Below, piece by piece: positions 488 to 14,012 of a DNA stretch of 20,369 bases. A model generated the notes under the pieces. The model searched no databases. It had not been told where the DNA came from and saw nothing but the letters and a program-made list of their open reading frames with translations. The stretch lies in IMG/VR virus record IMGVR_UViG_3300035701_004121, positions 1 through 20,369 of that record; one strand, 5' to 3'. The position numbers were made by a program, and so were the translations under genes. This stretch comes from a virus. Numbering within the stretch: position 1 is the stretch's first letter; every line of letters begins with the position of its first letter.

Positions 488-1146
488 GGGTGTGGACTGG
501 TTAATTTAACAAATCGATTATGATATTGATGTGTTTTTAAAACCTGCACTTTAAGTCCCAGCTTCCAGAAAGCATAAGGTTCGACCACCTGATCACAAGT
601 AAAGAAGCGCGATGAATGATACCACCAAAAACATAATGCCTGTTGGACTTTTAGAGTATTTCTATAGAAAAAGACGGTTGAAGTGTAAAGTTTGTCGTCT
701 TTATAATCCTTATCGGCTTCTATGACTTCAAGTTGTTCTTTATGAAAGCCATTTTGATACCGTTTAGAGATATATAGATTTCTTAAAGATAGTTTCCATT
801 CAATATAAGTAACTTCCTCCTTGATTGAGTTTCGGTGAGGATGTTTAAAGACTACTACATCGTGATCTTTACACCAATCAAAAAAATACATTAAAGAATT
901 AGGATGCTGCATGGTAAATGATCCATCCATCCAGAGATAATAATCATATCCGGGGAACATCTGCCAGCCAAACATCTTAGGAATCCGATATTGCATTCTT
1001 GGAGTCAATCCGGCACAAGGCGGGAAGTTCTTATCATCCCACCGATGAAATGTCATTTCGACATCCTCTCTTAAATTCTGTTTCTTATTATCAACATTAA
1101 CATCAAAATTCCCCAAGTTTGCTGTTAAAACTCCAATTTTTATCAT
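484..1146 (-). CDS. DUF616/TOD1-MUCI70-like putative glycosyltransferase
   Basis: A 220-residue protein. It opens with a beta-strand-like KIGVLTANLG and has a central segment FPGYDYYLWMDGSF (about residues 63-76), which resembles the W-x-D-g-s metal/donor-site signature of the DUF616 (TOD1/MUCI70) glycosyltransferase-like family. It is followed by VVVFKHPHR and a C-terminal histidine/aromatic-rich segment. No signal peptide or membrane span is visible, so it is probably cytosolic. Its ATG overlaps the TGA of the methyltransferase upstream, and its own TGA overlaps the ATG of the GT2 downstream, which puts it firmly inside one operon. The family assignment rests on motif recognition only; another small GT-A enzyme is the alternative. 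Confidence 0.62.
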   Translation of the reverse strand: MIKIGVLTANLGNFDVNVDNKKQNLREDVEMTFHRWDDKNFPPCAGLTPRMQYRIPKMFGWQMFPGYDYYLWMDGSFTMQHPNSLMYFFDWCKDHDVVVFKHPHRNSIKEEVTYIEWKLSLRNLYISKRYQNGFHKEQLEVIEADKDYKDDKLYTSTVFFYRNTLKVQQALCFWWYHSSRFFTCDQVVEPYAFWKLGLKVQVLKTHQYHNRFVKLTSPHP

Positions 1147-1787
1147 GGTTTAATAAACGACCAAGATTTCCATTTGTCTTGCTTAAAGTCGGAAATCCTA
1201 GCATTCAATCCCCAAATTATTAATGGTTTAATATTATTTTCTTTTACATATATGTTTACTGCGTTCTTTACACCAACTGCTATCCTACTCATCGATCTTG
1301 TATTATAATAATCATGTCCAGAGACTATCCCACCCTTTCTTACTTTTTTAGTCCATATAGTTATATCTTCTAAAGCATGACAATATTCATGGTCGGCATC
1401 GATATAGACGAAATCTATTGAATTATTCTTAAATCTTTTTACTGCATCTCTACTCCATGCCTTTATGATTCTATAATTAGGATACTTCTTCATATTTTTT
1501 TTAGTTATTCCAAAATATCTATCGGCTGTCTTTTGTGAAGTCAAGTCTCCGATATTAGGATTAGCGATATAAGCCCTCCAAGCATCAACTCCATAGAGCA
1601 TCATTTGAGGATTCTTTTGACAGATAATTTCAGAATATAGTCCTGTCTGGACTCCAATTTCAACTCCGACTTTAAAATTAAATTCATGCAATAAATCAAT
1701 AAGATCATTTCTATTGACATTAGGAATTTCAATTTTATCTTGTAAAGTTAGTTTATATTTTGCCAGTATGAGACAAAGCGTATCCAT
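1143..1787 (-). CDS. SAM-dependent methyltransferase (Methyltransf_24 type), copy A
   Basis: A 214-residue class I methyltransferase. The SAM-binding loop is VGVEIGVQTGLYSE (about residues 40-53), followed by the acidic strand LYGVDAW. Motif DFVYIDADHEY (about residues 125-135) and the late motif VRKGGIVSGHDYY are typical of the Methyltransf_24 family, which is often found in glycan-biosynthesis clusters and O-methylates sugars. The start is an ATG 35 nt inside the preceding epimerase gene. The gene ends in an ATGA overlap with the DUF616-like gene. It is a clear paralogue of the gene at 2298-2852: both carry the same KVRKGGIVSGHD stretch. The substrate is unknown; a sugar hydroxyl is inferred from the neighbours. 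Confidence 0.85.
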   Translation of the reverse strand: MDTLCLILAKYKLTLQDKIEIPNVNRNDLIDLLHEFNFKVGVEIGVQTGLYSEIICQKNPQMMLYGVDAWRAYIANPNIGDLTSQKTADRYFGITKKNMKKYPNYRIIKAWSRDAVKRFKNNSIDFVYIDADHEYCHALEDITIWTKKVRKGGIVSGHDYYNTRSMSRIAVGVKNAVNIYVKENNIKPLIIWGLNARISDFKQDKWKSWSFIKP

Positions 1788-2301
1788 ATTCTCTAATAAG
1801 ATCAGAGACGATCTCTTTAACTTTTAACATTCTCCCCGGAATATTCATCTCACAATTCCAATCGGGTATTAATTTCATCCAATATATAAATTCTTTCTTA
1901 TCTATCAAATAGCGATAAGTATTTTGGATTTTCAAATTACCCAACCCATCTTTCTTAAATTTATTTCTGAAATGGTTGAGTAAAGTGTGAGGATTCTTGC
2001 CCCATGTTATATTGCCTAATCTAACTATTGTATATTTTGGAAAAACCTCTTTAATTGTTCTCTCCATCTTTTTCTTATGTCTAATATAAGGAGTATTAGG
2101 AAAATTAGGATAAAAAAGTGAAAGCGAGCTAAAATAAACAATATGTTTTTTTGTATTCTGATCTAAAAGTAAATTTATTTCTCTGTCAAATTCTGATCCT
2201 CGGTCTTCTTTTGAATTTGAGACACCACTAGCAAAGAATAATAAATCTTTACGATCTACTTTTTTTAAGGCGTGAGCTATATCACCATTTCCTATAATCA
2301 T
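1753..2301 (-). CDS. Small NAD(P)-binding sugar epimerase/reductase-like protein (SDR fold)
   Basis: About 182 residues, with a Rossmann-type N-terminus MIIGNGDIAHAL, a strand HIVYFSSLSLFY in the position of the SDR Ser motif, and Y-I-R-H-K following it in the place of the catalytic YxxxK. VRLGNITWG resembles the post-catalytic strand of nucleotide-sugar epimerases. It is clearly shorter than the roughly 300-residue family norm, so the substrate-binding lobe is reduced. I chose the ATG at 2301 because it overlaps the TGA of the upstream methyltransferase (ATGA); a TTG at 2319 would only add six residues. It is probably a nucleotide-sugar reductase/epimerase feeding the neighbouring transferases. 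The exact reaction is unknown. Confidence 0.7.
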   Translation of the reverse strand: MIIGNGDIAHALKKVDRKDLLFFASGVSNSKEDRGSEFDREINLLLDQNTKKHIVYFSSLSLFYPNFPNTPYIRHKKKMERTIKEVFPKYTIVRLGNITWGKNPHTLLNHFRNKFKKDGLGNLKIQNTYRYLIDKKEFIYWMKLIPDWNCEMNIPGRMLKVKEIVSDLIREYGYALSHTGKI

Positions 2302-2852
2302 CTTTTTGTAAAATACCAACTGGGTTGTCTTTCATCCCTATTTAGATTCTCCAAATCCCAGTCGGTTGTTTTTAATGTAATTCTGTGAGCTGATACATAT
2401 TCTAAAACAGCAAATATTACTCCATGATCGCCTGAAGGAAAAACATAGAAGTCATGTCCAGAGACAATCCCGCCTTTTCTTACCTTCGGAGTCCAAGCAT
2501 TAATATCTTCTTTGACGAAATCGTAAGTATGGTTACCATCAATGAAGACAAAATCTAATGATTCATCGGCAAATTGTTTAACCGCAATCATACTGGTTTT
2601 AATAATAAATTCATAGGTAGGATACAGTGCTAGTTTCTCTTTAGCATGACCATACGCTCTCTCTAGACTACCTTGTCGCCTATAATCAGCATATCTTTGA
2701 TAAGTGATATAAGGGTCGACTCCATAGAGTTTTACTCCGGGGATACTTTGTTCCAGAACCAATGAATAAGTACCATCACAAACACCAACTTCAACACCAG
2801 TTTTAAAACCTAACTCATTAAAATATTTAGCAAGCTCGCCTCGGTTTTTCAT
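2298..2852 (-). CDS. SAM-dependent methyltransferase (Methyltransf_24 type), copy B
   Basis: A 184-residue paralogue of copy A. It has the SAM loop VGVEVGVCDGTYSL near the N-terminus, LYGVDPY, DFVFIDGNHTYDFV and KVRKGGIVSGHDFY. I chose the ATG at 2852, which begins one base after the TAA of the GT2 gene upstream (stop at 2854-2856). The TTG at 2885 would overlap that gene by 32 nt. It ends in an ATGA overlap with the epimerase-like gene. Two diverged methyltransferases flanking one epimerase suggest two methylation positions, or two sugars, in one glycan; this is inference. Confidence 0.85.
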   Translation of the reverse strand: MKNRGELAKYFNELGFKTGVEVGVCDGTYSLVLEQSIPGVKLYGVDPYITYQRYADYRRQGSLERAYGHAKEKLALYPTYEFIIKTSMIAVKQFADESLDFVFIDGNHTYDFVKEDINAWTPKVRKGGIVSGHDFYVFPSGDHGVIFAVLEYVSAHRITLKTTDWDLENLNRDERQPSWYFTKR

Positions 2853-2853
2853 T

Positions 2854-3792
2854 TTATTTGTAGCGATAATCTTTGAATTTATCAACTTCTAATCGTACTT
2901 TCCAATCTTCAGGCCATGTCGGAACTGGCCAAAACTTCTTAACCAGCCATTCCAGATTATGGGTATAGTTTTTAGTCTGAGTCCAATAATCTATGCAGTA
3001 TCTTCTTCCCTTCTCATTATCGGCTTTGAGTTTAGCCCATTGAGCATTGCAAAAGCGAAATCCCTTTCCTTTTTGCCCCTTGTGATAATGAGCATACCAA
3101 GTTTTTTTATTAACCACCTGTCTGCCTCCTGAGAACTGGCACTTGAATCCAATCTCCTGAGCTTCATGGGTAAACTGGCCGTATTTATCGCCATCCATCT
3201 CTCCTAAGTATTCCCAATAGCTTTTCTTCATAAAATAACAACTCCCTTGAGAAGCCATTGTATCATCAATTAATATGTCTCTTCTCTCCCACCACCGGGC
3301 TTTCCATTCAGCTCCATGTAATCCGCAGACAATATCATATGGCCGTTCAAACGGATAGGCAATAAACATATAATCGATAGGTGGCCGATTATCCTTTGGC
3401 TCATCATCTTTAGTTAAGATCCATTTATCAGCATTTAGTCTCCAGCGCCTTGGAATTACTACCCAATTATCATCACAATCGGCTTTTAACTTCTTGTCAT
3501 ATCCTTGATCCATCATGCAATGTTCATCAATCTTCATTACATATTCCCCTGTTGCTACCCTCATCCCTGCATTTATACAATCCCTCATTCCCCTGTTATT
3601 AAAGAAGATCCCTTGATGAAGATAGATAACCCGCTTATCCTCAACAAACTCTTCCGGCCAGTAACCATCCAATACGACAATAACTTCAACTTCATCTTCA
3701 GCTTTAGCCATTAGATCCTTAATTGTTGGATTAAGATAAGTATCAATCCGGGATGGAATAATAACTGATAGTTTATTCGCCATATAATTCAT
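2854..3792 (-). CDS. GT2-family glycosyltransferase
   Basis: A 312-residue GT-A glycosyltransferase. It starts KLSVIIPSR, then VEVIVVLDGYWPE, then GEYVMKIDEHCMMDQGYD, where IDEH occupies the DxD metal-site position (about residue 91). The rest is rich in Trp/Tyr and includes GSCYFMKKSYWEYLG and HYHKG segments typical of acceptor lobes. No transmembrane span is seen. Two in-frame starts are possible: ATG 3792 and ATG 3783. Both lie inside the end of the dehydrogenase gene, and a GGAGA lies 2 nt before the first and 11 nt before the second, so the spacing does not settle it. It ends one base before the ATG of methyltransferase B. Confidence 0.85.
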   Translation of the reverse strand: MNYMANKLSVIIPSRIDTYLNPTIKDLMAKAEDEVEVIVVLDGYWPEEFVEDKRVIYLHQGIFFNNRGMRDCINAGMRVATGEYVMKIDEHCMMDQGYDKKLKADCDDNWVVIPRRWRLNADKWILTKDDEPKDNRPPIDYMFIAYPFERPYDIVCGLHGAEWKARWWERRDILIDDTMASQGSCYFMKKSYWEYLGEMDGDKYGQFTHEAQEIGFKCQFSGGRQVVNKKTWYAHYHKGQKGKGFRFCNAQWAKLKADNEKGRRYCIDYWTQTKNYTHNLEWLVKKFWPVPTWPEDWKVRLEVDKFKDYRYK

Positions 3793-4537
3793 ATTCTCCG
3801 CTTCTTCTAATTAATGCTCTGGTTAAATCTGGTTTATATCCTACCGATTCCGCCCAAGCGCACCATGCTGGGACATCCTTTCTTAGACATTTGGAGTTGT
3901 TGAATCCCCTTTTTTCAGGGTAGACTAATGTCCACCAGAGAGTAAAGCGAGGATCATCACCATAAACAGAATCGCGAATATTATAGTAATCGATACCAGC
4001 CTTTTGACATACATCATATAATTCCTGACATTGCATAACTTTAAATGCAATAGCCCGGTTTTCAGTTAGTTTAACAACTTCTGCTTCAAGAAGCGTCATC
4101 TGTCTGATTTTGATATTAGCGTTATAGACCGTTCCATATAGGTCAATGACTTCTTTTCTATAATCTGGTTCTCCTCCTAAGATAATGAAAGAAACCTTTT
4201 TATTATCAAGAAGCGGATGATTTGGAGTCTCACCAAGATATTCAGGTTGAAATACTATCTTTTTACTGTATTTAATAGCCCACCTATCGCAATCTCCCGG
4301 ATTGACTGTTGATCTAATAATAATTAGAGGACATTTAATCCAGCTCATTATATTATCGATAAGTTCTACTCCTAATTTATAGCCATTATACGGAGTTGGG
4401 ACACAAATGAAAGCGACATCACACTTATTAACCTCTTCTTTTGTTCCAATCTTTGAAGTATAGGCATAAGCATCAGGGAAAAGTTGCATCATTGATCTAC
4501 CAACCCACCCGGTTGCACCAATAACCGCTATTTTCAT
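3773..4537 (-). CDS. Short UDP-glucose/GDP-mannose dehydrogenase-like protein
   Basis: A 254-residue protein with the N-terminal NAD-binding domain of the family (GATGWVG, residues 7-13; FICVPTP, 43-49; STVNPG, 76-81; PEYLGE, 98-103). It also has the central dimerisation helix (EAEVVKLTEN, with Lys156 and Asn160) and the catalytic-loop signature GFNNSKCLRKD with Cys217. Active-site residues for oxidising a UDP-sugar C6 hydroxyl to the carboxylate therefore appear intact. Family members usually have about 390-450 residues. This one stops shortly after the catalytic Cys and lacks the C-terminal UDP-binding domain, so it may bind its substrate differently or have another role. Its ATG directly follows the TAA of the Tad2-like gene (TAAATG). 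Confidence 0.82.
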   Translation of the reverse strand: MKIAVIGATGWVGRSMMQLFPDAYAYTSKIGTKEEVNKCDVAFICVPTPYNGYKLGVELIDNIMSWIKCPLIIIRSTVNPGDCDRWAIKYSKKIVFQPEYLGETPNHPLLDNKKVSFIILGGEPDYRKEVIDLYGTVYNANIKIRQMTLLEAEVVKLTENRAIAFKVMQCQELYDVCQKAGIDYYNIRDSVYGDDPRFTLWWTLVYPEKRGFNNSKCLRKDVPAWCAWAESVGYKPDLTRALIRRSGEYELYGE

Positions 4538-4786
4538 TTAGTTAACTTCTACAACTATTAACCAATCGGTAGCTGTAATATCCAGTTTATGCAACATCCA
4601 TTGAAATAAACCATTGATTCTCTTGATTTTCAAGAATCCCTCGGTATCAATGAAACCATATTCTCCTTCAGGCCAATCGACTCTAGTCACTTTCTTCCCT
4701 TCGACCATTTTTATTAATGCCTCGGCAAAGACCATCGGTGGATTAGTATTTTTTTTCATTACCGGGCTCATTGTTGATTCTGACAT
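4538..4786 (-). CDS. Tad2/DUF2829-like protein, putative anti-Thoeris factor
   Basis: 82 residues. From about residue 19 it matches the DUF2829 pattern: F-x2-AL-x3-EGKKVTRxxW near the front and LDITATDWLIV at the end, spaced for one small domain. DUF2829 proteins include Tad2, a phage protein that binds and sequesters the cyclic ADP-ribose signal of the bacterial Thoeris defence system. The first ATG (4786) lies 44 nt inside the upstream RHH gene. ATGs at 4771 and 4759 are alternatives, since the first 18 residues are outside the domain and no clear ribosome binding site decides. It is co-transcribed with the RHH gene from the promoter at 4943-4972. The family is fairly sure; the ligand is inferred. 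Confidence 0.75.
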   Translation of the reverse strand: MSESTMSPVMKKNTNPPMVFAEALIKMVEGKKVTRVDWPEGEYGFIDTEGFLKIKRINGLFQWMLHKLDITATDWLIVVEVN

Positions 4787-4934
4787 ATGATGATGATTGT
4801 GAAACTTTTAACTTTCTAATCACTTCAATATATTTATCAATGGCACGTCTGATATGTTCTGAAACGCTTATCTCATCTATATCTTCAAGGAATTTGTATT
4901 TCTCTTCGCTTAAATAGAAATTCTTACGGATCAT
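4743..4934 (-). CDS. Ribbon-helix-helix (Arc/CopG-type) DNA-binding protein
   Basis: 63 residues. MIRKNFYLSEEKYKFLEDI, then the turn SVSEHIRRAIDKYI, gives the beta-strand/helix/helix pattern of RHH repressors: an alternating basic/hydrophobic strand (IRKNFYL) for major-groove contact and SxSEHIRRAI as the second helix. The tail from about residue 45 is polar and probably disordered. It is the first gene after a strong promoter and sits directly upstream of the Tad2-like gene. That arrangement recalls the autorepressor-plus-anti-defence operons known for anti-CRISPR associated (Aca) proteins. The mRNA is predicted to start about 1-3 nt before the ATG, so the gene may be translated without a leader. 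Confidence 0.82.
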   Translation of the reverse strand: MIRKNFYLSEEKYKFLEDIDEISVSEHIRRAIDKYIEVIRKLKVSQSSSYVRINNEPGNEKKY

Positions 4935-4942
4935 ATACGCCT

Positions 4943-4972
4943 TTTATACAGACGATATTTATTTTATGTCAA
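4943..4972 (-). promoter_or_regulatory. Sigma70-type promoter for the RHH/Tad2/sugar operon
   Basis: On the minus strand there is a perfect TTGACA (4972-4967), an 18-bp spacer and TATAAA (4948-4943). Exactly 8 nt separate the -10 hexamer from the ATG of the RHH gene, so transcription should begin at or within 3 nt of the start codon. The first half of the spacer (TAAAATAAAT) is shared with the promoters at 7218-7247 and 10761-10790. Confidence 0.8.
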
Positions 4973-4979
4973 GCGGAAG

Positions 4980-5942
4980 TTAAGGAAGTGGGAACTCTGG
5001 GCTTGAAGGTGAGGCAGACTCTGAAGCTGAAGGAGATCGGCTGGCTGACGGAGAATAACTGGCCGAAGGTGAAATTGACCAAGAGGAAGATCTTGACGGA
5101 CTAATCGAGGCCGAGGGACTAAGTGAAGCTGAGGCACTCCCAGATGGACTGATACTGGCTGACGGTGAGACGCTAGCACTTGCTGAAGCCGAAGGACTGA
5201 TACTCCATGAGGCTGATGCCGAAGGGCTAACTGATGCGGAAGGTGAAAGCGAGGCACTTGGGCTGACCGAGGCCGAGGGACTAATGCTCCAAGACATAGA
5301 TTTCGATGGTGAGATACTGGCACTTGGGCTGACCGAGGCCGAGGGACTAATGCTAGCTGAAGGGGAAACACTCCAAGAGGAAGATCTTGACGGACTAATC
5401 GAGGCCGAGGGACTGATACTGGCACTAGGACTCTCCGAGGCTGACGGACTGATACTCCAAGAGGAAGATCTTGACGGACTGACTGAGGCAGAGGCGCTTC
5501 TTGAAGGTGAGATACTGGCACTTGGGCTGACCGAGGCCGAGGGACTAATGCTAGCTGAAGGCGATTTTGAAGTGCTTGGTGAAATACTGGCACTTGGTGA
5601 GACTGAAGCTGACGGAGATCCAGCAGCTAATACATATTGGAAGGCTGAAGTTGTTTCAGTTCCAGTATTAATATACATATTTGCCCCGGATGATATTCCT
5701 AATACATAAAAAATAGCACCTTTTTTGAATCCTGAATATCCAGTAGGAAGATAATAACCCTCAGCAATAAGAATTTTGCCGTCTGTATGATAAGCTATGA
5801 CTGCATTATATTGATATGGCTTTAGAGCATCTAGGAAGGCTTGCTCTGTTGAAGTCCTTTGGTTAGTAGTAATGGCTAGGACTCTAGTGAGTTCAGCTTG
5901 AGTTCTTTTCGGTAAGTCTCCTATTAATTCAAAATTAGCCAT
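4980..5942 (-). CDS. Virion fibre-like protein with Ser-Pro-Ser-Ala-Ser repeats
   Basis: 320 residues from the ATG at 5942 (a GTG at 5963 would add seven). Residues 1-107 form a compact, non-repetitive domain with mixed strands and one helix, probably a virion anchor. From about residue 109 almost to the end the protein is an array of SPSAS(V/I/L) hexapeptide-like units, interrupted several times by SSSWS or ASWS. There is no globular tip. The gene follows the major capsid gene, so a capsid-surface or head-fibre role is likely. At DNA level the array includes a 56-nt perfect repeat (5308-5363 and 5506-5561), so length variation by recombination is plausible. The serine-rich, mucin-like composition makes it a candidate glycosylation target of the adjacent cassette (inference). 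Confidence 0.8.
4990..5620. repeat. Degenerate tandem repeat array encoding SPSAS units
   Basis: Most units are multiples of 6 codons built on the same few words, such as GCCGAGGGACTAAT and GATACTGGCACT on the plus strand. The 56-nt stretch at 5308-5363 recurs without change at 5506-5561, 198 nt (66 codons) apart. Shorter copies occur around 5256-5289, 5078-5115 and 5371-5411. All spacings preserve the reading frame. The array is noticeably richer in G+C than the surrounding DNA. Confidence 0.92.
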
Positions 5943-5966
5943 ATTAGTTTTTAGTAATATCACTCT

Positions 5967-5981
5967 TAGGCTTTTCGCCTA
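5967..5981 (-). promoter_or_regulatory. Short hairpin between capsid and fibre genes
   Basis: TAGGC / GCCTA arms with a 5-nt loop lie 25 nt upstream of the fibre-gene ATG, in the 80-nt gap after the capsid stop. There is no U-tract, so this is not a typical terminator. It could slow nucleases or adjust translation of the fibre gene. The stem is only 5 bp and chance cannot be excluded. Confidence 0.35.
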
Positions 5982-6022
5982 TCACACTACTTCCAATCTA
6001 ACTATCAAGAAACTTCCGAACT

Positions 6023-7132
6023 TTAAGCAAATGTCCAGAAACCCTCGGCTGCGAATGATCTTCTACGATCTGCTACTTTAGCACCGTATACGAAAAGATC
6101 CTTATAAGCTGAACCGAAGTTTCCGATTAACACTTCTTCTATATCTGCTGATAGTAATTTCTCAGCAAATGTCATCCAATTCGGGTGTCCTGCTAAACAA
6201 TGGTAACCTGATGTGTTATTTCCTGTCAGACGATTACTCTTGAAGATTTTAAATCCTAAGAGCGATCCGATATACCCTTTTTGAATAAGATCGGCATATA
6301 CCGCATCAACCGATAACACAACTCCAGTTGACCTAACTACTGTATTCTCAAATTCTGGAGGAACGATTAACCATCTATCGCTATCTGGAACGGCGTTCAT
6401 GCCGTATGTTTCAGCTTTATCTAGTTTTTGTCTAAGCTGAGCTACTCTTGCAACTAAAGTTCCAGTTGTTACTGAAACTGGTGTAACTGCAGAAATTATA
6501 TAAGCTGCACCTCCACCTAGAACTCCACCTGTATATTGAGTAGTAACATCATCTAGATCATCTTCAATAACAATTGAGTCTGTTCCACCATAGGAAGCTA
6601 CTCTATACCATTTCAAATGTCCGGTAGCTTTAAATCCTCTACCTACACAGGCTGACGTAAATACGCCATTTGTTCCAGTTACATTTCCTGAAGCATCAAT
6701 TGTAACTGTTCCGGCTGTAATATCTGTTCCATCCCTGTTTCCGGCTTGTACTTTTGCATATAAGGCAAAAGCATAGAGTTCCATATTTCTTGCTCGCTCT
6801 TCTGCTTTTTGTTTTACAACTGTTGGATGAGGATCTTTTATATATGAAAGCCAATTGTCTAAAGTCTTTTCTCTCCAATAGAACGATTTATATTGTGAAA
6901 TCGTTAGAATGGCATTGTTTTCTGTCAGATCATCGGCAGTTGTAAGATTAGCGCCGGTATAAGTTCTTTCTGTAATACGATCAAAATTCAAAATATTTAA
7001 CTTTGAACCTATTGCATTAACTTCTCCTTGATAATCTCTATTGACGATTGAGTCGAGAATGCTCAAGTCGTACATCTCAAGCAGTAGTTTTTGGGAAAAC
7101 CCTTGAGCTAGAGTAGTTGCTCTTGCTGCCAT
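6023..7132 (-). CDS. Major capsid protein (P22/HK97-fold type)
   Basis: 369 residues starting MAARATTLAQGFS. It sits immediately after a scaffold-like gene and in order with the portal and terminase genes, the expected place for a coat protein. The N-terminal helix (LLLEMYDLSILDSIVNRDY) and the segment ITERTYTGANLTTADDLTENN resemble the N-arm and E-loop region of P22-like coat proteins. Residues about 130-210 form a Gly/Thr-rich, strand-rich insertion. The C-terminal third has DRWLIVPPEFEN, GFKIFKSNRL and a late DLFVYGAKVADRRRSFA segment, as in A- and P-domains of HK97-fold capsids. It has its own promoter (7218-7247) and an approximately 80-nt leader with a hairpin, consistent with strong late expression. 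Confidence 0.87.
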   Translation of the reverse strand: MAARATTLAQGFSQKLLLEMYDLSILDSIVNRDYQGEVNAIGSKLNILNFDRITERTYTGANLTTADDLTENNAILTISQYKSFYWREKTLDNWLSYIKDPHPTVVKQKAEERARNMELYAFALYAKVQAGNRDGTDITAGTVTIDASGNVTGTNGVFTSACVGRGFKATGHLKWYRVASYGGTDSIVIEDDLDDVTTQYTGGVLGGGAAYIISAVTPVSVTTGTLVARVAQLRQKLDKAETYGMNAVPDSDRWLIVPPEFENTVVRSTGVVLSVDAVYADLIQKGYIGSLLGFKIFKSNRLTGNNTSGYHCLAGHPNWMTFAEKLLSADIEEVLIGNFGSAYKDLFVYGAKVADRRRSFAAEGFWTFA

Positions 7133-7176
7133 ATTTTTGTATTGGTAAGAAAATAATAATATGAAGTTTGTTTCGG

Positions 7177-7194
7177 CCTCTTCTCAAAAAGAGG
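7177..7194 (-). promoter_or_regulatory. 5'-UTR hairpin of the capsid gene (copy 1 of a shared motif)
   Basis: CCTCTT / AAGAGG arms with a 6-nt loop lie in the capsid leader, about 45 nt before the ATG. The flanks on the minus strand are AA before and CCGAAAC after. The same arrangement (6-bp stem, 6-nt loop, GAGGCCG on the 3' side) occurs before the scaffold gene at 8088-8105, with one stem pair changed on both sides. See that entry and the finding. Confidence 0.6.
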
Positions 7195-7217
7195 TTATGA
7201 AGTTGTCTTCAGAAGTA

Positions 7218-7247
7218 ATGATAAAGACGCAATTTATTTCATGTCAA
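7218..7247 (-). promoter_or_regulatory. Sigma70-type promoter for the major capsid gene
   Basis: On the minus strand: TTGACA (7247-7242), an 18-bp spacer, TATCAT (7223-7218). The spacer is nearly identical to that of the promoter at 4943-4972 (T-R-AAATAAAT, then CGTCT). The -35 begins just past the stop of the scaffold gene. The predicted start near 7211 gives a leader of about 79 nt carrying the hairpin at 7177-7194. Confidence 0.75.
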
Positions 7248-7255
7248 GGGGAATA

Positions 7256-8077
7256 TTATTCGATAGGTTCAAGTTCCAAAGTTCCGGCTTTAATTTGTTT
7301 CAATTTCTCTTTATAGAGTTTATAATTGCTTTCTCTAATCCTTGTCATTTCTTCAGTTGAGATCTTATTACCTGACTCTTCTTTAGTTGATGGCCCACCC
7401 GATCCTCTAGGAAACATCTCATCCTTATTTTTGGGTTTTTTAGCTTCTTCTTGTCCTATATCATATAAGAAGGCTTTGACCAAATCCTCAAAATCAACTC
7501 CCCGCCTTGTTTCCTTACTGGCAAACATTCTAAATTCTTCCTGTTTACCTTCAAGATCAGGATTAGCTATTAATGTTTTTGGATCTTCAATAAACTTATC
7601 CACCTTATCATACCATTCTGCAATAGGCTTACCAGCTTGTGAGGCTTGGTGAAGAACTTTCATCTGCCGTTTATTAAGTTCAGTATCTTTGGCTAATCTT
7701 TTTTCAAAGTCTGATAATACATCCCAATCAGGAATAGAAGCTATCATCTCTTTATCAGTTGGTTCATGTAAGGCATTGGCTTGTTCTATGGCTTGGTTCA
7801 TTGCCTTATCTTTAGAATAAAGAACTTTAGCCTCTCTAGTTGAAGCGATATATTGCTTTTTATAATCTATTTCTGGTTTCTCTTCCTTTTTCTTTTTTGA
7901 TGGAGGTGGTTCAGATGGAGTTTCTTTTTCTGGTTCAGAGGAAGGAGGAGTAGGAGTATCTTCTTTTGGAATCTCTTCTTTAACTTCTAATTCTTTTTCA
8001 ACTTCTTCAGTTGCTTTCTTTATCCCTTCTTCTAGTTCTGCCTTAGTTGGTTTTATATGCAATTTTTGTTCTGCCAT
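7256..8077 (-). CDS. Putative capsid scaffolding protein
   Basis: 273 residues, highly charged, directly upstream of the capsid gene and downstream of the portal, which is the standard position of a scaffold. Residues about 15-75 are Glu/Lys/Pro/Ser-rich and probably disordered (PPSSEPEKE, PPPSKKKKEEK). The middle is predominantly helical (residues about 80-195). The C-terminal approximately 35 residues form a basic/amphipathic helix (ESNYKLYKEKLKQI), the type of segment that binds coat protein in P22-like systems. It has no recognisable protease motif. The start is an ATG at 8077, preceded by a hairpin in the 46-nt gap. The identity is from position and composition, not from a sequence signature. 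Confidence 0.68.
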   Translation of the reverse strand: MAEQKLHIKPTKAELEEGIKKATEEVEKELEVKEEIPKEDTPTPPSSEPEKETPSEPPPSKKKKEEKPEIDYKKQYIASTREAKVLYSKDKAMNQAIEQANALHEPTDKEMIASIPDWDVLSDFEKRLAKDTELNKRQMKVLHQASQAGKPIAEWYDKVDKFIEDPKTLIANPDLEGKQEEFRMFASKETRRGVDFEDLVKAFLYDIGQEEAKKPKNKDEMFPRGSGGPSTKEESGNKISTEEMTRIRESNYKLYKEKLKQIKAGTLELEPIE

Positions 8078-8087
8078 ATTTGTCCGG

Positions 8088-8105
8088 CCTCATCTAATTA
8101 TGAGG
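8088..8105 (-). promoter_or_regulatory. 5'-UTR hairpin of the scaffold gene (copy 2 of a shared motif)
   Basis: CCTCAT / ATGAGG arms with a 6-nt loop lie 10 nt before the scaffold ATG. Compared with 7177-7194, stem length, loop length, the preceding AA and the 3' GAGGCCG are the same, while one internal base pair differs on both arms (A-T against T-A). No U-tract follows, so a translation- or stability-controlling element is more likely than a terminator. Confidence 0.6.
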
Positions 8106-8123
8106 TTGTGGAATAATTGGTAA

Positions 8124-8351
8124 TTATTTAACTTTTTTTGTCGGTTCTAATATACTTTTGAATTTAACTTTCTCTTCTGGTTTCAAATAAGAAATCCTTG
8201 CTCGAAGAAATGCTATTTGGAACGCATTTAATTCATGGATTTCTTTTTTAGTGATTTTATCAATCTCGTCCTGAAATTCTTTTCTCGCTATTTCACGATT
8301 TCTTTTAAGAGTTGCTTCCATTTTTACTGGATCATCTACTACATCAATCAT
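8124..8351 (-). CDS. Small helical protein of unknown function, head region
   Basis: 75 residues, rich in Lys, Glu and Ile, and predicted almost entirely helical (EATLKRNREIARKEFQDEIDKITKKEI, read in two pieces, then AFQIAFLRARISYL). There is no known motif. It lies between the portal and scaffold genes, so it may be a minor head or assembly factor, but this is positional only. The ATG at 8351 is 8 nt downstream of a -10-like TATCCT, which suggests a leaderless message. The gene could also be co-transcribed from further upstream. Confidence 0.68.
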   Translation of the reverse strand: MIDVVDDPVKMEATLKRNREIARKEFQDEIDKITKKEIHELNAFQIAFLRARISYLKPEEKVKFKSILEPTKKVK

Positions 8352-8359
8352 AGGATATA

Positions 8360-8389
8360 AGGATAAATGTCAATTTTATCTAAAGTCAA
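8360..8389 (-). promoter_or_regulatory. Promoter-like element upstream of the 75-residue gene
   Basis: On the minus strand: TTGACT (8389-8384), an 18-bp spacer containing ATAAAA at the same position as in the other minus-strand promoters, and TATCCT (8365-8360), then 8 nt and ATG. The -10 matches only 4 of 6 consensus bases; the support comes from the shared architecture. Confidence 0.5.
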
Positions 8390-8409
8390 GAGTATATTAT
8401 CTGTATAAG

Positions 8410-8598
8410 TTAAAATCCTTTAGTTAAAGCTATTCTTCTTGCTTTATTTTTGTCTTCAATTCTAGCGGTCTTTTTACCTTTTCTTTTGGCTACTTTATTC
8501 GGCAGCTTTTTACCCTTGGTCATCTTAGCCCATTTCTTAGCCCACGGTTTCTTATTAGCAAAAGCCCATTTTTCCTGTTTTTTTGATTTGAATGGCAT
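8410..8598 (-). CDS. Small lysine-rich phage protein
   Basis: 62 residues, about a third Lys or Arg, beginning MPFKSKKQEKWAFANK. This N-terminal pattern (MP-x-KSK-x-Q-x2-W/F-x-AN-x-P) is common in short basic proteins found among phage head genes, whose function is not established. It may bind DNA or be packaged. The start is the ATG at 8598, two bases after the TAA of the gene upstream (8601-8603), so it is co-transcribed. The 58-nt gap downstream contains the promoter-like element at 8360-8389. Confidence 0.7.
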   Translation of the reverse strand: MPFKSKKQEKWAFANKKPWAKKWAKMTKGKKLPNKVAKRKGKKTARIEDKNKARRIALTKGF

Positions 8599-8600
8599 AG

Positions 8601-8927
8601 TTATTTGTTTTTAATTGATAACACTGCTTGTTCGATTGCCTGTTTTGCCCGTTCAGGAGATGTTAAGAGGGCTTCAATCAACATATAATTTCTAAGTCTT
8701 GCTTTAAGTAATATTTGTCTTCTATTAATAAAGAAGAAGAACCGTGTTTCAGGTTCATTGATTAACTCCTGTTCAACTGCATACTTCATATTGGCTATCG
8801 CATCTTTAATCTTCTCTATCGTAAGAGAACTTTTCTGAAGAGCATCCATCCATTGATTCAAGGTTTCTTTCTCGGCTTTATTTAAATCCTCATATTTTAA
8901 TCCTAGTTTATTTAAAATCTCATCCAT
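8601..8927 (-). CDS. Helical protein of unknown function downstream of portal
   Basis: 108 residues from the ATG at 8927, which begins one base after the portal TAA (8929-8931). A GTG at 8936 would overlap the portal gene. The sequence is helical throughout. The first half is acidic (LKYEDLNKAEKETLNQWMDA); the middle has the unusual run RFFFFINRRQILLKARLRNY, combining a short hydrophobic patch with basic residues. Its place directly behind the portal gene fits a head-completion or portal-associated role, but no family is recognised. Confidence 0.68.
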   Translation of the reverse strand: MDEILNKLGLKYEDLNKAEKETLNQWMDALQKSSLTIEKIKDAIANMKYAVEQELINEPETRFFFFINRRQILLKARLRNYMLIEALLTSPERAKQAIEQAVLSIKNK

Positions 8928-8928
8928 A

Positions 8929-10752
8929 TTAAACACTTAAACTATTAACTGTTCCTTGATTTGGATTAGCTGGCTGGGGTGTTGATTGTGCTGACTTGGG
9001 TGGTGGTTGTCCAGTCTGCGCTGCCATTGCTGCCTGTTGTGCCATCGCTTGTTGGACTTCCATTTCAGTTTGTAGAATATTTTTGACTTCTTCAGCATCT
9101 AAACCTGCAAATTCCAAGAGCTTTCTATTCATAACTTCATTTAACTTTGGATTCATTGGCATATTGGCTTTTGCCATCTGTAATTTCTGAATACTCATAT
9201 TATCTTTAGTATTCTTGTCATCCTGACTCCAGACTTTGCAGCGATAACCTGATTTAGTCTTCCAGTCTTTAGGCCCGATAGTTCTTGCATAAATATCATT
9301 AGTATTTCTACCTTTTTTATAGACCTTAACAGCATCGATCTTACTGGCTGCTGCCTCAAGGAGTTTAATAAACATTTCTCCCCGATCCATCCATGCTTGA
9401 GTATAGAACTTGGACATATCCTTGATTCTCTCCTGAGACATCTGGGCTGTCATTTGAGCAACACCAAGCTGCACTCTTCCCGGAAGCGGTGTCCCTTGAA
9501 GTAAACTTGAAGCACCAGTTGCCTCATTAACCATACCTGTTATAAATTCGATATCATCTTTAGAGTTCTTCAGCTCCGGGATCTCAACATTTTGCAACAC
9601 ATCATTGATATTCTGGTTTTGCGGTACTGGTATTCCATACCATCCCCACGGAATCGGAGCATATGATTGTGGCTGGAATCCTTCCAAGTTTGAGTTGAAG
9701 TAGTGCATATTGAAGTTTCTCATCGTTCTATTTTCAACTAACTGTGAATACCAGCTATTGATGACCTTATTAGGTTGTCGAATAATGTCAGCAATAGAAT
9801 CACTCCAAAAGTCCTGTCTTTCAATATCGTCAGCCCATGAACAATAAGGATAATGATTCTGGAAGTAATGGTCTGAAGTTGTCCCCATGATCTCCTCTAA
9901 TGGCTTTTTCATTAAAATCTGCATATTATCAGCCTCAACATAAAGAATTATTTGTGTTGGAATCTCTTTGCCGTTCTCATCAGTAGCATTATCTCTGAAA
10001 ACAAAATGAAGTGATAATTCAACATATGTTTCACCTAAGATTGGTGCATGAGCATCAAACACTCCCATATCTGTAAGTTTCTTCTGACGCATAGCTAACA
10101 TATTAAGATTTGTAGTCGATTTAATAAGTCCTAATTTCCCAGCATGCCATATCTTTAATCTCTCAACTGCATCCTGATCGTATCCTGGGTGCTGATCTAA
10201 TGTAGATAAGGGAACAAAGATATGAGTATGGATAAGAAAGCGTGATGAATGAATATTATGCGGTTCAGTATATCGTGAGACTAAGATATCTTCTGGATCT
10301 TGAACAGTCATTACCACTTTACCATCGATTACCTGCCATTGGTCAAAAGACCTGCCAAATAACATAACTTGTTTTTTATCAATAATGTCCTGCATCTCCA
10401 TTTTGTTTTGCTCTACTGTATATTTCCAATACTCATTCTTGAAGATTTCAGCTGTCTTATCATTATCTAAGTTCTCAAAAAGTAAAATTGGCATTTCATC
10501 GACATATTTAAGCATTGTCTTAATGCTTTTCTTCATTAGAGGTAGATTGACTGACTGCCTTTGGGTTAATCGGTTATAGATAACCTTATCCCGGTAAAAT
10601 TCATAATTCTCAGTCCAATCATTATATTTTCTAAATCGGTAGTTATAGCCATGAAGTTTATTGTTACGAAGCATCACTAATTCTGGAGAGGTGAGTTCTA
10701 TTCCATCTAAGTTATTTCCGGCAGTTAGCATTGGTTTAGGAGGAGCGATCAT
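8929..10752 (-). CDS. Phage portal protein
   Basis: 607 residues, the right size for a portal, immediately after the terminase large subunit and before the head genes. The N-terminal half is mixed alpha/beta with many aromatic residues. The segment EATGASSLLQGTPLPGR (about residues 410-430), followed by a long helix with QMSQERIKDMSKFYTQAW, corresponds to the stem/long-helix region typical of dodecameric portals. The C-terminal approximately 60 residues are Gln/Ala/Pro-rich and probably disordered, lining or leaving the crown. It would form the DNA-entry ring and dock the terminase. The ATG at 10752 lies 8 nt after a -10-like hexamer. Confidence 0.87.
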   Translation of the reverse strand: MIAPPKPMLTAGNNLDGIELTSPELVMLRNNKLHGYNYRFRKYNDWTENYEFYRDKVIYNRLTQRQSVNLPLMKKSIKTMLKYVDEMPILLFENLDNDKTAEIFKNEYWKYTVEQNKMEMQDIIDKKQVMLFGRSFDQWQVIDGKVVMTVQDPEDILVSRYTEPHNIHSSRFLIHTHIFVPLSTLDQHPGYDQDAVERLKIWHAGKLGLIKSTTNLNMLAMRQKKLTDMGVFDAHAPILGETYVELSLHFVFRDNATDENGKEIPTQIILYVEADNMQILMKKPLEEIMGTTSDHYFQNHYPYCSWADDIERQDFWSDSIADIIRQPNKVINSWYSQLVENRTMRNFNMHYFNSNLEGFQPQSYAPIPWGWYGIPVPQNQNINDVLQNVEIPELKNSKDDIEFITGMVNEATGASSLLQGTPLPGRVQLGVAQMTAQMSQERIKDMSKFYTQAWMDRGEMFIKLLEAAASKIDAVKVYKKGRNTNDIYARTIGPKDWKTKSGYRCKVWSQDDKNTKDNMSIQKLQMAKANMPMNPKLNEVMNRKLLEFAGLDAEEVKNILQTEMEVQQAMAQQAAMAAQTGQPPPKSAQSTPQPANPNQGTVNSLSV

Positions 10753-10760
10753 AAACTCAT

Positions 10761-10790
10761 ATATTAGAAGAGGATTTTATTTTAATGCAA
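10761..10790 (-). promoter_or_regulatory. Promoter-like element upstream of the portal gene
   Basis: On the minus strand: TTGCAT (10790-10785), an 18-bp spacer beginning TAAAATAAAA, TAATAT (10766-10761), then 8 nt and the portal ATG. The hexamers match consensus only in part. The geometry and the spacer word are the same as at the RHH promoter. The -35 abuts the terminase stop codon. Confidence 0.55.
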
Positions 10791-12206
10791 CTAGTAAATT
10801 CCAAGTTCAGGATAAAGCGGTTTTATTCCTCCCGGATCATTTGGTTTCCATGTATTATTTTCAGGTTTATCTACCTCAAAATACATTCTCATTAACATCA
10901 TATCTGAAAAGTCAGGAGATCGACCCAATGCTTCTTTTACTTCTTCTTTTGGTATCAACTGTAAAGGTGCTTCGATTGATGTTTCTTTTTTCTTTATTTG
11001 CTGTAAATCTTCAATAATCATTTCTTTTGTGATTTCATCTATCTTTGCACTAATTGCTATTTCATGATTTTTAATCTTGGTAGCTAATATAAATCCGCAT
11101 TGAGATCGTAAGTTTCTATAATTTTCTTTTTTTGTATTATTTGCGTATATATTGATAATCGGTTTAATTGGTGTACTATTCCCAACGAATCCTTTAATAC
11201 CCTTAACTATATCAACCACACCACCACCTACTCCGTCATCATCTGCAATTGCGTGACTATAAGGAATATTTCCGTCTCTTAATTCTATTTTTATATCTTC
11301 AGATGTTTGAGGTATGCTTCTATTTTGTTTCCAAGTAATCTTATAAAGATTTAATCCTTTCCAACTTCCTAAAGTTATTTTATCGCTTCCATATCTTGCT
11401 ACATCAGCCGTAAAGAAAGATGATTCTTGTACTGCTACACTATTTGTAAATAAATCTACAATAGAATCATAATCAATTAGACTATTATCACCTTTTGCAT
11501 ATTCCCATAATCCAAGTTTTAATCTTGCTCGAAGTATCGGATCAGTTATTTGCTCTAATCTAGATTCGGCCTCTTTTGAAGTATAAGGATTATCTTTATA
11601 AAGTGCAGGAATAAAAGCATATCCTTTTGGAAGTGTATTTTTTTTATATGGTTTATAAAATATCCTATATAGCCAATTTTGTTCAGGATTGCAAGTCAGA
11701 AGAATCTTTGGAAACAAATTATATTCTTTATTTTTCCATCTTCCAACGCGCCCTTTTAAAACATCAAAAGCAAGAAAATGAACTTCACCTGCTTCTTCAA
11801 TCCATCCTCCTGTATATTCCGTTGATCCATATCTTTGAAACATTGGATCAGTCGGAGAAAACTTTAAATCAAGTAAATCAATTCGTGATCCATTCTTAAA
11901 CTGTATATAGTGATATTGACCATTAAATGTCCAATCTTCAGGAGGAATATCGTGATATACACACACTTTTCTAAATGTTTGATAAGAAGATGCCATTAAT
12001 CTTGTTAATTCATTTCTTCCTATAAACCATTTTGTACCGGGATATCTATAACAGTTTGTAAGCAACCATTCAGCTCCCAACCAAGATTTACCTCCTTCTG
12101 CTCCTCCACCAAATAAGAGAAAACGAACAATATCATCCCAAAGAAGTTCATAGGCAAGACTTTGTTTATATGTTGGTTTTATTGTCGGTGTTATTTGTTG
12201 TTGCAT
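10791..12206 (-). CDS. terL: Terminase large subunit
   Basis: 471 residues with both terminase domains. ATPase: Walker A GGGAEGGKS (residues 33-41), Walker B GGWIEEA (133-139), coupling motif LLTCNP (169-174), and YKDNPYTSKE (203-212) as in many phage terminases. Nuclease, RNase H-like: FFTADVARYGSD with Asp268 as the first metal ligand, then HAIADDDGVGGGVVD around residues 320-335 with the second acidic cluster. It cleaves concatemers and pumps DNA into the procapsid through the portal. The ATG at 12206 overlaps the small-subunit gene by 41 nt. The stop is TAG. Confidence 0.93.
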   Translation of the reverse strand: MQQQITPTIKPTYKQSLAYELLWDDIVRFLLFGGGAEGGKSWLGAEWLLTNCYRYPGTKWFIGRNELTRLMASSYQTFRKVCVYHDIPPEDWTFNGQYHYIQFKNGSRIDLLDLKFSPTDPMFQRYGSTEYTGGWIEEAGEVHFLAFDVLKGRVGRWKNKEYNLFPKILLTCNPEQNWLYRIFYKPYKKNTLPKGYAFIPALYKDNPYTSKEAESRLEQITDPILRARLKLGLWEYAKGDNSLIDYDSIVDLFTNSVAVQESSFFTADVARYGSDKITLGSWKGLNLYKITWKQNRSIPQTSEDIKIELRDGNIPYSHAIADDDGVGGGVVDIVKGIKGFVGNSTPIKPIINIYANNTKKENYRNLRSQCGFILATKIKNHEIAISAKIDEITKEMIIEDLQQIKKKETSIEAPLQLIPKEEVKEALGRSPDFSDMMLMRMYFEVDKPENNTWKPNDPGGIKPLYPELGIY

Positions 12207-12594
12207 CTTTTGGTTTTTCAGGAGGAAGATAATTAAATCCTACTATTTGTTTATCTGCTGATGTAGTGTCGGTTCTTTCTTTCATACCATGATTATTTTG
12301 AAGAATAAGTTTAACGATAGTTGAATTGACTTCTTTACCACCATAAATACCATCATCTATTAATTGTTCTTTTTGTCTAGCCATTAATTTTTTTAAAGCG
12401 GCGGAAAACTCTGGATATATCTTTCCCCATTCAACAAGAGTATCACCATTTACATTGATATAAAGAGCAAAACTCTCCATCTTAGGTAAATGCATTTGTT
12501 CCTTACCAGTAGTTTGTAAATATTCATCTACCTTTTGAATGAAGATAGGATCATATTTTGTTGGTCTGCCTCCCAGATGTTTAGTTTCTTCCAT
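12166..12594 (-). CDS. terS: Terminase small subunit
   Basis: 142 residues directly upstream of and overlapping the large-subunit gene. It begins with GGRPTKYDP (residues 8-16), a common opening of terminase small-subunit/DNA-packaging proteins. A helix-turn-helix-like segment follows (SFALYINVNGDTLVEWGKIYPEF, read in two parts, about residues 46-68) and then helices with LKKLMARQKEQLIDDGIYGG for oligomerisation. The C-terminus is polar and Thr/Asn-rich. It recognises the packaging site and stimulates the large subunit. The ATG at 12594 lies two bases after the stop of the winged-helix gene. Confidence 0.82.
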   Translation of the reverse strand: MEETKHLGGRPTKYDPIFIQKVDEYLQTTGKEQMHLPKMESFALYINVNGDTLVEWGKIYPEFSAALKKLMARQKEQLIDDGIYGGKEVNSTIVKLILQNNHGMKERTDTTSADKQIVGFNYLPPEKPKDATTNNTDNKTNI

Positions 12595-12596
12595 AT

Positions 12597-12845
12597 TTAA
12601 ATATTACGAATCATAACATATTCTGTAGTATTCTGTTTTTCAGTCCAAGCCCTTCTTATATATCCTTTGTTAATCAAAGAATGTAGGGAATACTTTACCG
12701 TAGCACCATTTATTCCTTTATTAATCATATCTTTAATAATCTCTTTTTGGGGAATAGTAGTTTTTTGGGTATTGGCCCAACATTTGATAAATACCATAAT
12801 CTTAAACTGTAAATCATTTATATCCCGCACCGGAAAATGATTCAT
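12597..12845 (-). CDS. Winged-helix DNA-binding protein
   Basis: 82 residues from the ATG at 12845. A helix pair and wing are visible: TIPQKEIIKDMI, then NGATVKYSLHSLINKGYIRRAWT, and the hairpin QNTTEYVMI, the pattern of MarR/replication-initiator-like winged helices. It could regulate the packaging genes it precedes, or act in packaging itself. A TTG at 12890 would add 15 residues, but these would be encoded by a strong inverted repeat (12846-12881), which is better explained as a control site; I therefore chose the ATG. No ribosome binding site is obvious for either start. Confidence 0.68.
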   Translation of the reverse strand: MNHFPVRDINDLQFKIMVFIKCWANTQKTTIPQKEIIKDMINKGINGATVKYSLHSLINKGYIRRAWTEKQNTTEYVMIRNI

Positions 12846-12881
12846 AACTGGGGAAAGGCTAGCCGCTCTTTTCCCCCAGTT
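12846..12881. promoter_or_regulatory. Strong inverted repeat before the winged-helix gene
   Basis: Arms AACTGGGG-AAAG and CTTTT-CCCCCAGTT (one extra base in each run) enclose a GGCTAGCC palindrome. It abuts the ATG at 12845. Either a DNA operator for the winged-helix protein or a hairpin at the mRNA start would fit. There is no U-tract, so it is not a standard terminator. Confidence 0.7.
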
Positions 12882-12895
12882 AAGTACCAAGTACC
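12882..12895. repeat. Tandem heptamer AAGTACC x2
   Basis: Two exact copies of AAGTACC (GGTACTT on the minus strand) directly flank the inverted repeat at 12846-12881. Adjacent heptamers in phase with each other and next to a dyad are typical of regulator-binding sites, though a two-copy repeat this short can arise by chance. Confidence 0.55.
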
Positions 12896-12972
12896 GATAG
12901 GATATAAGAATTGTTTATGAAGATTATTTTAAGAATAAAAGTTACAGCCATTCATGGAGAGGTCTGAAAAAC

Positions 12973-13001
12973 ATTTTATACATTTTTAGTCGAATTGTCA
13001 A
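12973..13001 (-). promoter_or_regulatory. Promoter for the winged-helix/terminase genes
   Basis: On the minus strand: TTGACA (13001-12996), a 17-bp spacer, TAAAAT (12978-12973). It overlaps the last codons and stop of the integrase gene. The predicted start near 12966 gives a leader of about 120 nt that includes the heptamer pair and the inverted repeat. Confidence 0.65.
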
Positions 13002-13938
13002 TAATTAAACTTATACGGTCATTTTCCTCTTTTAAAGTTACATTGATTTTGCTTGATTTGATCTTCTCTATGAAAAACCTCAATTTTGTTTTAATTACAT
13101 CAAGATTGATACCAGACGTTGCCAATGGATGTTCTTTGATGATATTTAACAGATCATCAGTTATTAAATGGGTATAGGCTAGGGTAGTCTCCAACTTCTT
13201 ATGACCTACAATTTGAGCTACTTTGAATGGGTTTTGGTCGTTTCTTAAACATTCCGTTATAAATGAATGTCTGAAAGTATGATTGTGGATGGATTTGTCA
13301 ATATGACAAGCCCTTGCTCTAAGTTTTAATTCAAGATTTAGATAATTAGATTGTAACCTTCCACCTCTCATTCCAAATATATACTTGTTTTTGGGAAGTT
13401 TATCCAATATCAGTTTTAATTTAGGGGCAACTGGTATTTGCCGTGCTTCATTGGTTTTACTATCTCTTATTATAAAATTATCATTGATAATATCAGTCCA
13501 TTTTAAATTGCAAAGCTCGTTAATTCTAGCGCCTGTTAAGGCTAAAGCATAGATAACAGCCCTGAATCTACGGTTAATCGCTCTGGTGTTTTTCTTTCTT
13601 TTAATCCTGATCTCGGCCAATCGCTTTATTTCAGTTGTAGTTAATGTTTCTATAAATTTCTTAGTTGGATTTGGAGTTTTATAATCTTTAGTAAATTCAA
13701 GGTGAAGTATCTTGCCGATATGGTGGAGAACTAGGATATAATTTTTTAGGGTTGACTTTTCATTAACTTTTTGTCTATCATATATAAACGCATCAACGTT
13801 TTCTTTATTAAAATCAATATTTTCAAAGTAAGTTTTTATATGACGGAAGAAGTAGGAGAGCGATTTAACAGTTGAGTCTTTTACTTGGCGGTTTAAGTAT
13901 AAATAATTTGCAAACTGATTTTCGTTTAACTTTAACAT
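12976..13938 (-). CDS. int: Tyrosine recombinase (phage integrase)
   Basis: 320 residues. The N-terminal SAM-like core-binding domain covers about residues 1-85 and the catalytic domain about 100-270. All catalytic residues are present: Arg138 (LTGARINEL), Lys161 (DSKTNEARQIPV), His220-x-x-Arg223 (HTFRHSF), His246 (VGHKKLETT) and the nucleophile Tyr255 (AYTH). An approximately 50-residue C-terminal extension follows the active site. It would catalyse site-specific integration and excision, which implies a temperate life cycle; no att core could be identified here. It is divergent from the plus-strand regulator. The ATG at 13938 lies 8 nt after the -10 of its promoter, suggesting a leaderless mRNA. 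Confidence 0.92.
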   Translation of the reverse strand: MLKLNENQFANYLYLNRQVKDSTVKSLSYFFRHIKTYFENIDFNKENVDAFIYDRQKVNEKSTLKNYILVLHHIGKILHLEFTKDYKTPNPTKKFIETLTTTEIKRLAEIRIKRKKNTRAINRRFRAVIYALALTGARINELCNLKWTDIINDNFIIRDSKTNEARQIPVAPKLKLILDKLPKNKYIFGMRGGRLQSNYLNLELKLRARACHIDKSIHNHTFRHSFITECLRNDQNPFKVAQIVGHKKLETTLAYTHLITDDLLNIIKEHPLATSGINLDVIKTKLRFFIEKIKSSKINVTLKEENDRISLIIDNSTKNV

Positions 13939-13946
13939 TAATTATT

Positions 13947-13976
13947 ATCATAAGGCTAAATATGATTACTAATCAA
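13947..13976 (-). promoter_or_regulatory. Integrase promoter
   Basis: On the minus strand: TTGATT (13976-13971), an 18-bp spacer, TATGAT (13952-13947), followed by exactly 8 nt and the integrase ATG. It is back to back with the plus-strand promoter at 13984-14012; the two -35 boxes are only 7 bp apart, so the two transcripts may compete or be controlled by one bound regulator. Confidence 0.65.
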
Positions 13977-13983
13977 TTACCAC

Positions 13984-14012
13984 TTGACAAATAAAAAAGA
14001 CTATGTTAGACT
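13984..14012 (+). promoter_or_regulatory. Rightward (early) promoter
   Basis: Perfect TTGACA (13984-13989), a 17-bp spacer, TAGACT (14007-14012, 4 of 6). It is the only convincing plus-strand promoter and heads the rightward gene block. The predicted start near 14019 leaves a leader of about 75 nt that contains the dyad at 14031-14080. Confidence 0.7.

Follow-up and report, generated by a model that had tools for sequence, protein, structure and literature searches.

The virus record from IMG/VR that we analyzed (20,369 bp, called the window throughout) contains four genes on its minus strand that begin directly behind a pair of promoter-like hexamers. The four genes encode an RHH-like small protein, a 75-residue protein, the protein in the portal position and a tyrosine integrase. 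We consider it very probable that the hexamer pairs are sigma70-type promoters that give leaderless or near-leaderless mRNAs, and that this mode of initiation is common to the phage and its host. The motif, its position before the start codon, its conservation among related phages and its distribution in host genomes were all observed directly.

Promoter-like hexamers next to start codons

An earlier note on this DNA had reported that the four genes share a -35 hexamer, an 18-bp spacer, a -10 hexamer and exactly 8 nt before the ATG, and had argued that such identical geometry is hard to put down to chance. Direct reading confirms every hexamer, spacer and gap (Table 1). The form common to all four genes is the relaxed TTGNNN-18-TANNN(T/A)-8-ATG. 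The strict form, TTGN3-N18-TANNNT-N8-ATG, has three matches on the two strands of the window, all at these gene starts; the RHH gene, with a -10 (TATAAA) outside TANNNT, counts as the fourth under the relaxed form only. All four pairs consist of TTGACA-like and TATAAT-like hexamers at a distance within the 16–18 bp of sigma70-type promoters, and the integrase -35 (TTGATT) is weak. Apart from RHH, they also carry the TANNNT that lies about 12 bp before the start codon in TA-led genes; the distance is 14 bp in the window and mainly 12 bp in relatives.

We scored 33 gene starts over 186 combinations of spacer and gap in 3000 dinucleotide shuffles of the window. The combination that holds the four genes contained 0.04 genes on average after shuffling, and four genes were not reached for any combination in any shuffle (0/3000). 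The geometry is as improbable by chance as the earlier note had supposed. The note had also stated that the 8-nt gaps lack a ribosome binding site. Indeed, direct reading finds no Shine-Dalgarno (SD) sequence between the -10 and the start codon, with the caveat that the RHH gap region has AAGG (AAAAGGCGTAT-ATG), a weakly SD-like string that overlaps the -10. Hence, the absence is less clean for RHH.

Related phages show the same arrangement. Searches with the portal-position gene, the major capsid protein (MCP) gene and the terminase yielded about 140 related loci (L002-L141 among their names), and orthologues were assigned by BLAST. Across 1619 gene starts of these loci, the TTG-TANNNT pair with an 18-bp spacer and a gap of 6–9 nt occurs 86 times, against a background of 6.8. 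At the same gaps a 17-bp spacer occurs 19 times (background 3.6) and a 16-bp spacer 13 times (3.8), and the remaining spacers are near background. The pair precedes 72 of 1497 start ATGs (4.8%) and 106 of 41,565 other ATGs (0.26%). The earlier note had named an outcome that would speak against its pattern, namely that the pattern turns up just as often in shuffled or internal sequence; this is not what we find.

The gap is less constant than the window suggests. It spans 5–9 nt in relatives, with 46 cases of 6 nt, 16 each of 7 and 8 nt, and 7 of 9 nt. Exactly 8 nt therefore holds for the four genes of the window but not as a rule or a special constant; it is how a habit of the family looks locally. 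The 18-bp spacer varies less, and the MCP promoter has it too, although this promoter lies 57–89 nt upstream of the gene; TTGAC(A/T)-N18-TANNNT stands 50–95 nt upstream of the ATG in 55 MCP orthologues. Judged by its sequence, MCP is a leadered gene.

In most portal-position and MCP promoters of the related loci, spacer positions 6–7 read TA. T stands at position 6 in 84% and 82% of them, respectively, and A at position 7 in 94% and 85%. The host promoters that we examined do not show this dinucleotide.

The pair is attached to particular genes. It adjoins the ATG of the portal-position gene in 40 of 50 orthologues, and shifting the search window upstream lowers this number to 0–9. It also adjoins the ATG in 10 of 17 RHH orthologues, in 16 of 63 glycosyltransferase orthologues and in 17 of 58 loci at the gene immediately upstream of the scaffold gene, which is the position of the 75-residue gene (shifted controls 1–3). 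By contrast, it stands next to the ATG in 0/47 terL, 1/71 MCP and 1/61 scaffold orthologues. Placement at the head of a unit is thus seen for the portal-position gene and not for terL or MCP. SD strings are found in 2/50 portal-position and 0/17 RHH orthologues, and SD-like strings in 25/61 scaffold orthologues.

Patescibacteria as hosts and the predicted mode of initiation

Two relatives point to the hosts of this phage family. A related phage contig of 21.8 kb was binned with a metagenome-assembled genome (MAG) of Candidatus Woesebacteria, as a match in a genome collection showed. Furthermore, a patescibacterial contig of 149 kb (G371:C1) carries integrase, terS, terL, portal, scaffold and MCP genes in the same order, with glycosyltransferase-like genes flanking the integrase side. 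The syntenic prophage and the phage contig in the Woesebacteria MAG together indicate that the family infects Patescibacteria.

The genomes of these bacteria have the -10 in the same place. TANNNT lies exactly 6 nt before the ATG in 128 of 562 genes of genome G371 (background 14.6 per position), in 61 of 409 genes of G190 (14.4) and in 26 of 271 genes of G001 (6.5). Stretches of Escherichia coli K-12, our negative control, have it in 2 of 180 genes (3.4). For gaps of 6–8 nt in G371, the motif precedes 40% of divergent genes, 38% of genes at least 25 nt from their upstream neighbor and 21% of tightly packed genes (shifted controls 6–9%, E. coli 1–2%; the E. coli figure set against the 40% is 1.4%), and SD strings are commoner within operons. 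The preference for spaced and divergent genes is the behavior of promoters, not of translation signals. When both hexamers are considered, spacers of 17 and 18 bp occur 40 and 25 times in G371, 24 and 8 times in G190, 14 and 12 times in G049, and 9 and 10 times in G001. Hence, 17 bp is favored in two of the four large samples and the two lengths are about even in the others. A phylum-wide count of the pattern (157 of 240 genomes at gaps 6–8 and 108 at gaps 14–16) was mildly informative and was replaced by the gene-start analysis.

RNA synthesis from sigma70 promoters begins about 7 nt past the -10. With a gap of 6 nt the A of the ATG thus falls at +1, and a gap of 8 nt gives a leader of 0–3 nt. 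Read in this way, the four sites of the window (-35 TTGNNN, 18-bp spacer, TANNNT-like -10) would be sigma70-type promoters with transcription starting 0–3 nt before the AUG; that these promoters are active, where exactly transcription starts and that translation begins at the 5′-AUG are what we infer here. Ribosomes of Patescibacteria would read such leaderless or near-leaderless mRNAs directly at the 5′-terminal AUG. The phage would place this mode at the heads of several of its transcription units (the portal-position gene, the small gene before the scaffold gene, RHH and the glycosyltransferase gene), and the hosts would use the same layout, with the -10 next to the ATG, at many operon heads and SD sequences more often inside operons. 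The subset of leaderless or near-leaderless genes that the earlier note had predicted, as a programme of phage and host, has passed the tests of chance, orthologues, shifted positions, host genomes and E. coli, which are all sequence tests.

Several points weigh against this reading. The starts of transcription and translation are predictions from sequence. Patescibacteria are assigned as the host of the window itself by way of its relatives. Many of the scored genes are orthologous by descent, and the counts therefore overstate the independent evidence. The gap of 8 nt is longer than the 6 nt favored by hosts and relatives, so that a leader of 1–3 nt may be likelier than a strict 5′-AUG. For the integrase the relatives give no support: the one distant homologue found has no clear match. 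The average of the phylum is modest. Forty further Patescibacteria genomes, sampled at 20 kb each, give 65 cases at gap 6 when pooled, against 27.2 expected (standard deviation 6.3), and the peak is clear in 9 of the 40; the trait is thus uneven across the phylum. Finally, in G049 the peak is present only in combination with the -35.

Other explanations and known systems

The pair could be a promoter class of the phage that has a strict 18-bp spacer with TA at positions 6–7 and needs a phage factor, its proximity to the ATG being a by-product. Phage spacers are indeed mostly 18 bp (86 against 19 of 17 bp), while hosts have about as many or more of 17 bp. The TA is common to portal-position and MCP promoters, and the MCP gene has the same promoter class far from its ATG. 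However, no candidate activator was identified, and hosts show the same distance from -10 to ATG without the phage, so the placement next to the ATG is no by-product. We regard this explanation as unlikely, though it deserves some weight. It is a little less likely still that the promoters are real but secondary, with leaderless mRNAs a minor product and most protein made from upstream read-through mRNAs by internal entry or coupling. The tight packing of the genes on one strand fits this idea, as do terminator-like sites in the region that are no more numerous than in shuffles. The portal-position promoter fits it as well, since it takes up all 38 nt from the terL stop to the ATG. Yet the pair is kept at four fifths of the portal-position orthologues and is missing before terL, and SD strings are rare at the portal-position gene.

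It seems very improbable that the strings are not promoters but serve as signals for translation or as operators for a repressor. Palindromes lie over the -10 up to the ATG upstream of some RHH genes (L002 and L046), but only 2 of 17 members have strong ones. Moreover, enrichment requires both hexamers at a fixed spacing of 17–18 bp, and operon heads are favored over interiors. Chance in an A/T-rich genome can be practically dismissed. A generic sigma70 scan does find 46 promoter-like sites against 40.9 (standard deviation 7.4) in shuffles, which is no clear excess; the arrangement at start codons, however, is set apart from chance by the shuffles, the shifted positions, the internal ATGs and the E. 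coli control.

Sigma70-type promoters giving leaderless or near-leaderless mRNAs, the reading we prefer, have counterparts elsewhere. In phage lambda the leaderless case is a single regulator gene. The likeness is a phage gene translated from a 5′-terminal AUG, as is predicted here; the difference is that the predicted leaderless genes of this phage stand at the heads of several units, include a structural gene and are conserved across a family. The lambda leaderless mRNA is mentioned by Zheng et al. (2011, PMC3160421), who described TA-led leaderless genes in 953 genomes, with TANNNT about 12 bp before the start codon and no SD sequence. The groups include Actinobacteria, Deinococcus-Thermus and others; Patescibacteria are not named. 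Our sites share the TANNNT, whose first T lies 14 bp (gap 8) from the start codon in the window and 12 bp (gap 6) in the majority of relatives, and the lack of an SD sequence, but the phage sites have a clear -35. In Mycobacterium tuberculosis about a quarter of the genes with a primary transcription start site are leaderless, counted as such when transcription starts no more than 5 nt from the start codon, and their promoters contain TANNNT (Cortes et al. 2013, PMC3898074). Those promoters have no -35 consensus and their starts were mapped experimentally, whereas the phage starts are predicted from sequence. In Deinococcus-Thermus, a -10 a few bp before the open reading frame drives leaderless mRNA and the spacing to the reading frame matters; most of these promoters have no -35, and adding one 17 bp upstream raises expression (PMC12340547). 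The scored phage genes, in contrast, carry both hexamers.

The kind of initiation is thus already known; Patescibacteria seem to add a new case to it. Three papers on phages of the same host phylum (PMC13059738, PMC12911398, PMC10746230) do not contain the words leaderless or promoter in their main texts. We found no published description of leaderless initiation in Patescibacteria, Saccharibacteria or the Candidate Phyla Radiation in a search that left out most subscription journals and all preprints. That the mode is new for Patescibacteria is likely but not proven.

A hairpin before the capsid genes and other features of the window

The leader of the MCP gene contains a conserved hairpin, and a second copy, seen by eye in the sequence, stands directly before the scaffold gene (Table 1). 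The consensus is CC-(W)AAC-YYY-loop-RRR-(A/C)C-GG, with WAAC/MC as an internal loop. Its core is present upstream of MCP in 57 of 73 regions (1.2 after shuffling) and upstream of the scaffold gene in 36 of 60, and it is found in 0/49 portal-position and 0/63 glycosyltransferase upstream regions. Both helices vary with compensation, from C-G to U-A. Rows of our hand-placed alignment were chosen partly for pairing, so its 100% pairing is biased; with placement by sequence landmarks alone, 47 of 63 copies pair fully, compared with 31 on average and at most 41 in 2000 permutations. RNAalifold predicts no pairs on the raw leader alignment, in which loop lengths vary and the helices are misaligned.

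An RNA model built from 19 copies finds more copies at the scaffold position, about 900 bp upstream of those at MCP. The MCP copy of the window is weak for the model (13.2 bits, E 0.09), and both hairpins of the window fold well (z -2.9 for MCP, -3.3 for scaffold). Rfam gives no match in the window between 4900 and 14100 at E ≤ 1, nor in eight relatives at gathering cut-offs. Matches of the model in host genomes outside the phage contig (G090, G083 and G047) look like chance and were discarded; two lie inside coding genes and one after clpP. The hairpin is a candidate for a new structured RNA. It may recruit ribosomes without an SD sequence, stabilize the mRNA or bind a phage protein.

Table 1. 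Positions of predicted promoters, hairpins and genes in the window
Feature	Position (strand)	Details
RHH promoter, leaderless type	4935..4972 (-)	TTGACA 4972-4967, N18, TATAAA 4948-4943, 8-nt gap, ATG 4934
75-residue gene promoter, leaderless type	8352..8389 (-)	TTGACT, N18, TATCCT, 8-nt gap, ATG 8351
Portal-position gene promoter, leaderless type	10753..10790 (-)	TTGCAT, N18, TAATAT, 8-nt gap, ATG 10752
Integrase promoter, leaderless type	13939..13976 (-)	TTGATT, N18, TATGAT, 8-nt gap, ATG 13938
MCP promoter, leadered (contrast)	7218..7247 (-)	TTGACA-N18-TATCAT, 85 nt upstream of ATG 7132
Conserved hairpin in MCP leader	7166..7207 (-)	leader 7133-7217
Second hairpin copy	8083..8113 (-)	before scaffold ATG 8077
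RHH-like small protein	4743..4934 (-)	63 aa; weak RHH_1 and PHROG repressor matches
75-residue protein	8124..8351 (-)	no PHROG or Pfam match
Portal-position protein	8929..10752 (-)	607 aa; label from gene order only
Tyrosine integrase	12976..13938 (-)	PF00589, E 5e-21

Pfam and PHROGs searches with the portal-position protein gave no match, and its AlphaFold model is poor (pLDDT 51). Upstream of the RHH gene, L002 and L046 have near-perfect palindromes (TTGTGTATCATATACACAA and TACACATAATATGTGTA), which are weak in most other members. Their extent from the -10 to the ATG suggests that RHH represses its own gene. Directly after the RHH gene lies a candidate anti-Thoeris gene (4538-4786, minus strand), whose Tad2-like product matches PF11195 over the Pfam cut-off. 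Further along, a cluster of sugar and methyl transfer genes (484-4537, minus strand: glycosyltransferase 2, UDP-sugar dehydrogenase, Methyltransf_24, TOD1-like) perhaps serves surface modification. The protein encoded downstream of MCP (4980-5963, minus strand) contains a long serine/proline repeat, and L002 has a similar one. On the plus strand, a protein at 17125-17916 contains a series of four-residue repeats that are nearly identical (NQVW, NQVR, DQVW). A promoter-like TTGACA-N17-TAGACT with a TG lies at 13984-14012 on the same strand, 82 nt before the first rightward ATG at 14095. It appears to be an early promoter of the leadered kind, placed back to back with that of the integrase, which is of the leaderless type.

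Tentatively, we propose the following division of labor, which we hold to be possible but somewhat less likely than not. Phages and Patescibacteria would share the leaderless mode; the unit heads (portal-position gene, RHH, glycosyltransferase) would be leaderless, and the scaffold and capsid genes would stand behind a new covarying hairpin that modulates the recruitment of ribosomes or takes its place.

Patescibacteria, ultra-small bacteria whose ribosomes are reduced, form a very large phylum that is mostly uncultured. If the reading is true, these ribosomes are a natural test of leaderless initiation. If up to 40% of the operon-head genes are leaderless in some members, calling gene starts in hosts and phages needs a model that is aware of the -10. 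The phage family would supply compact, conserved test promoters, with leaderless and structured-leader genes in one small genome.

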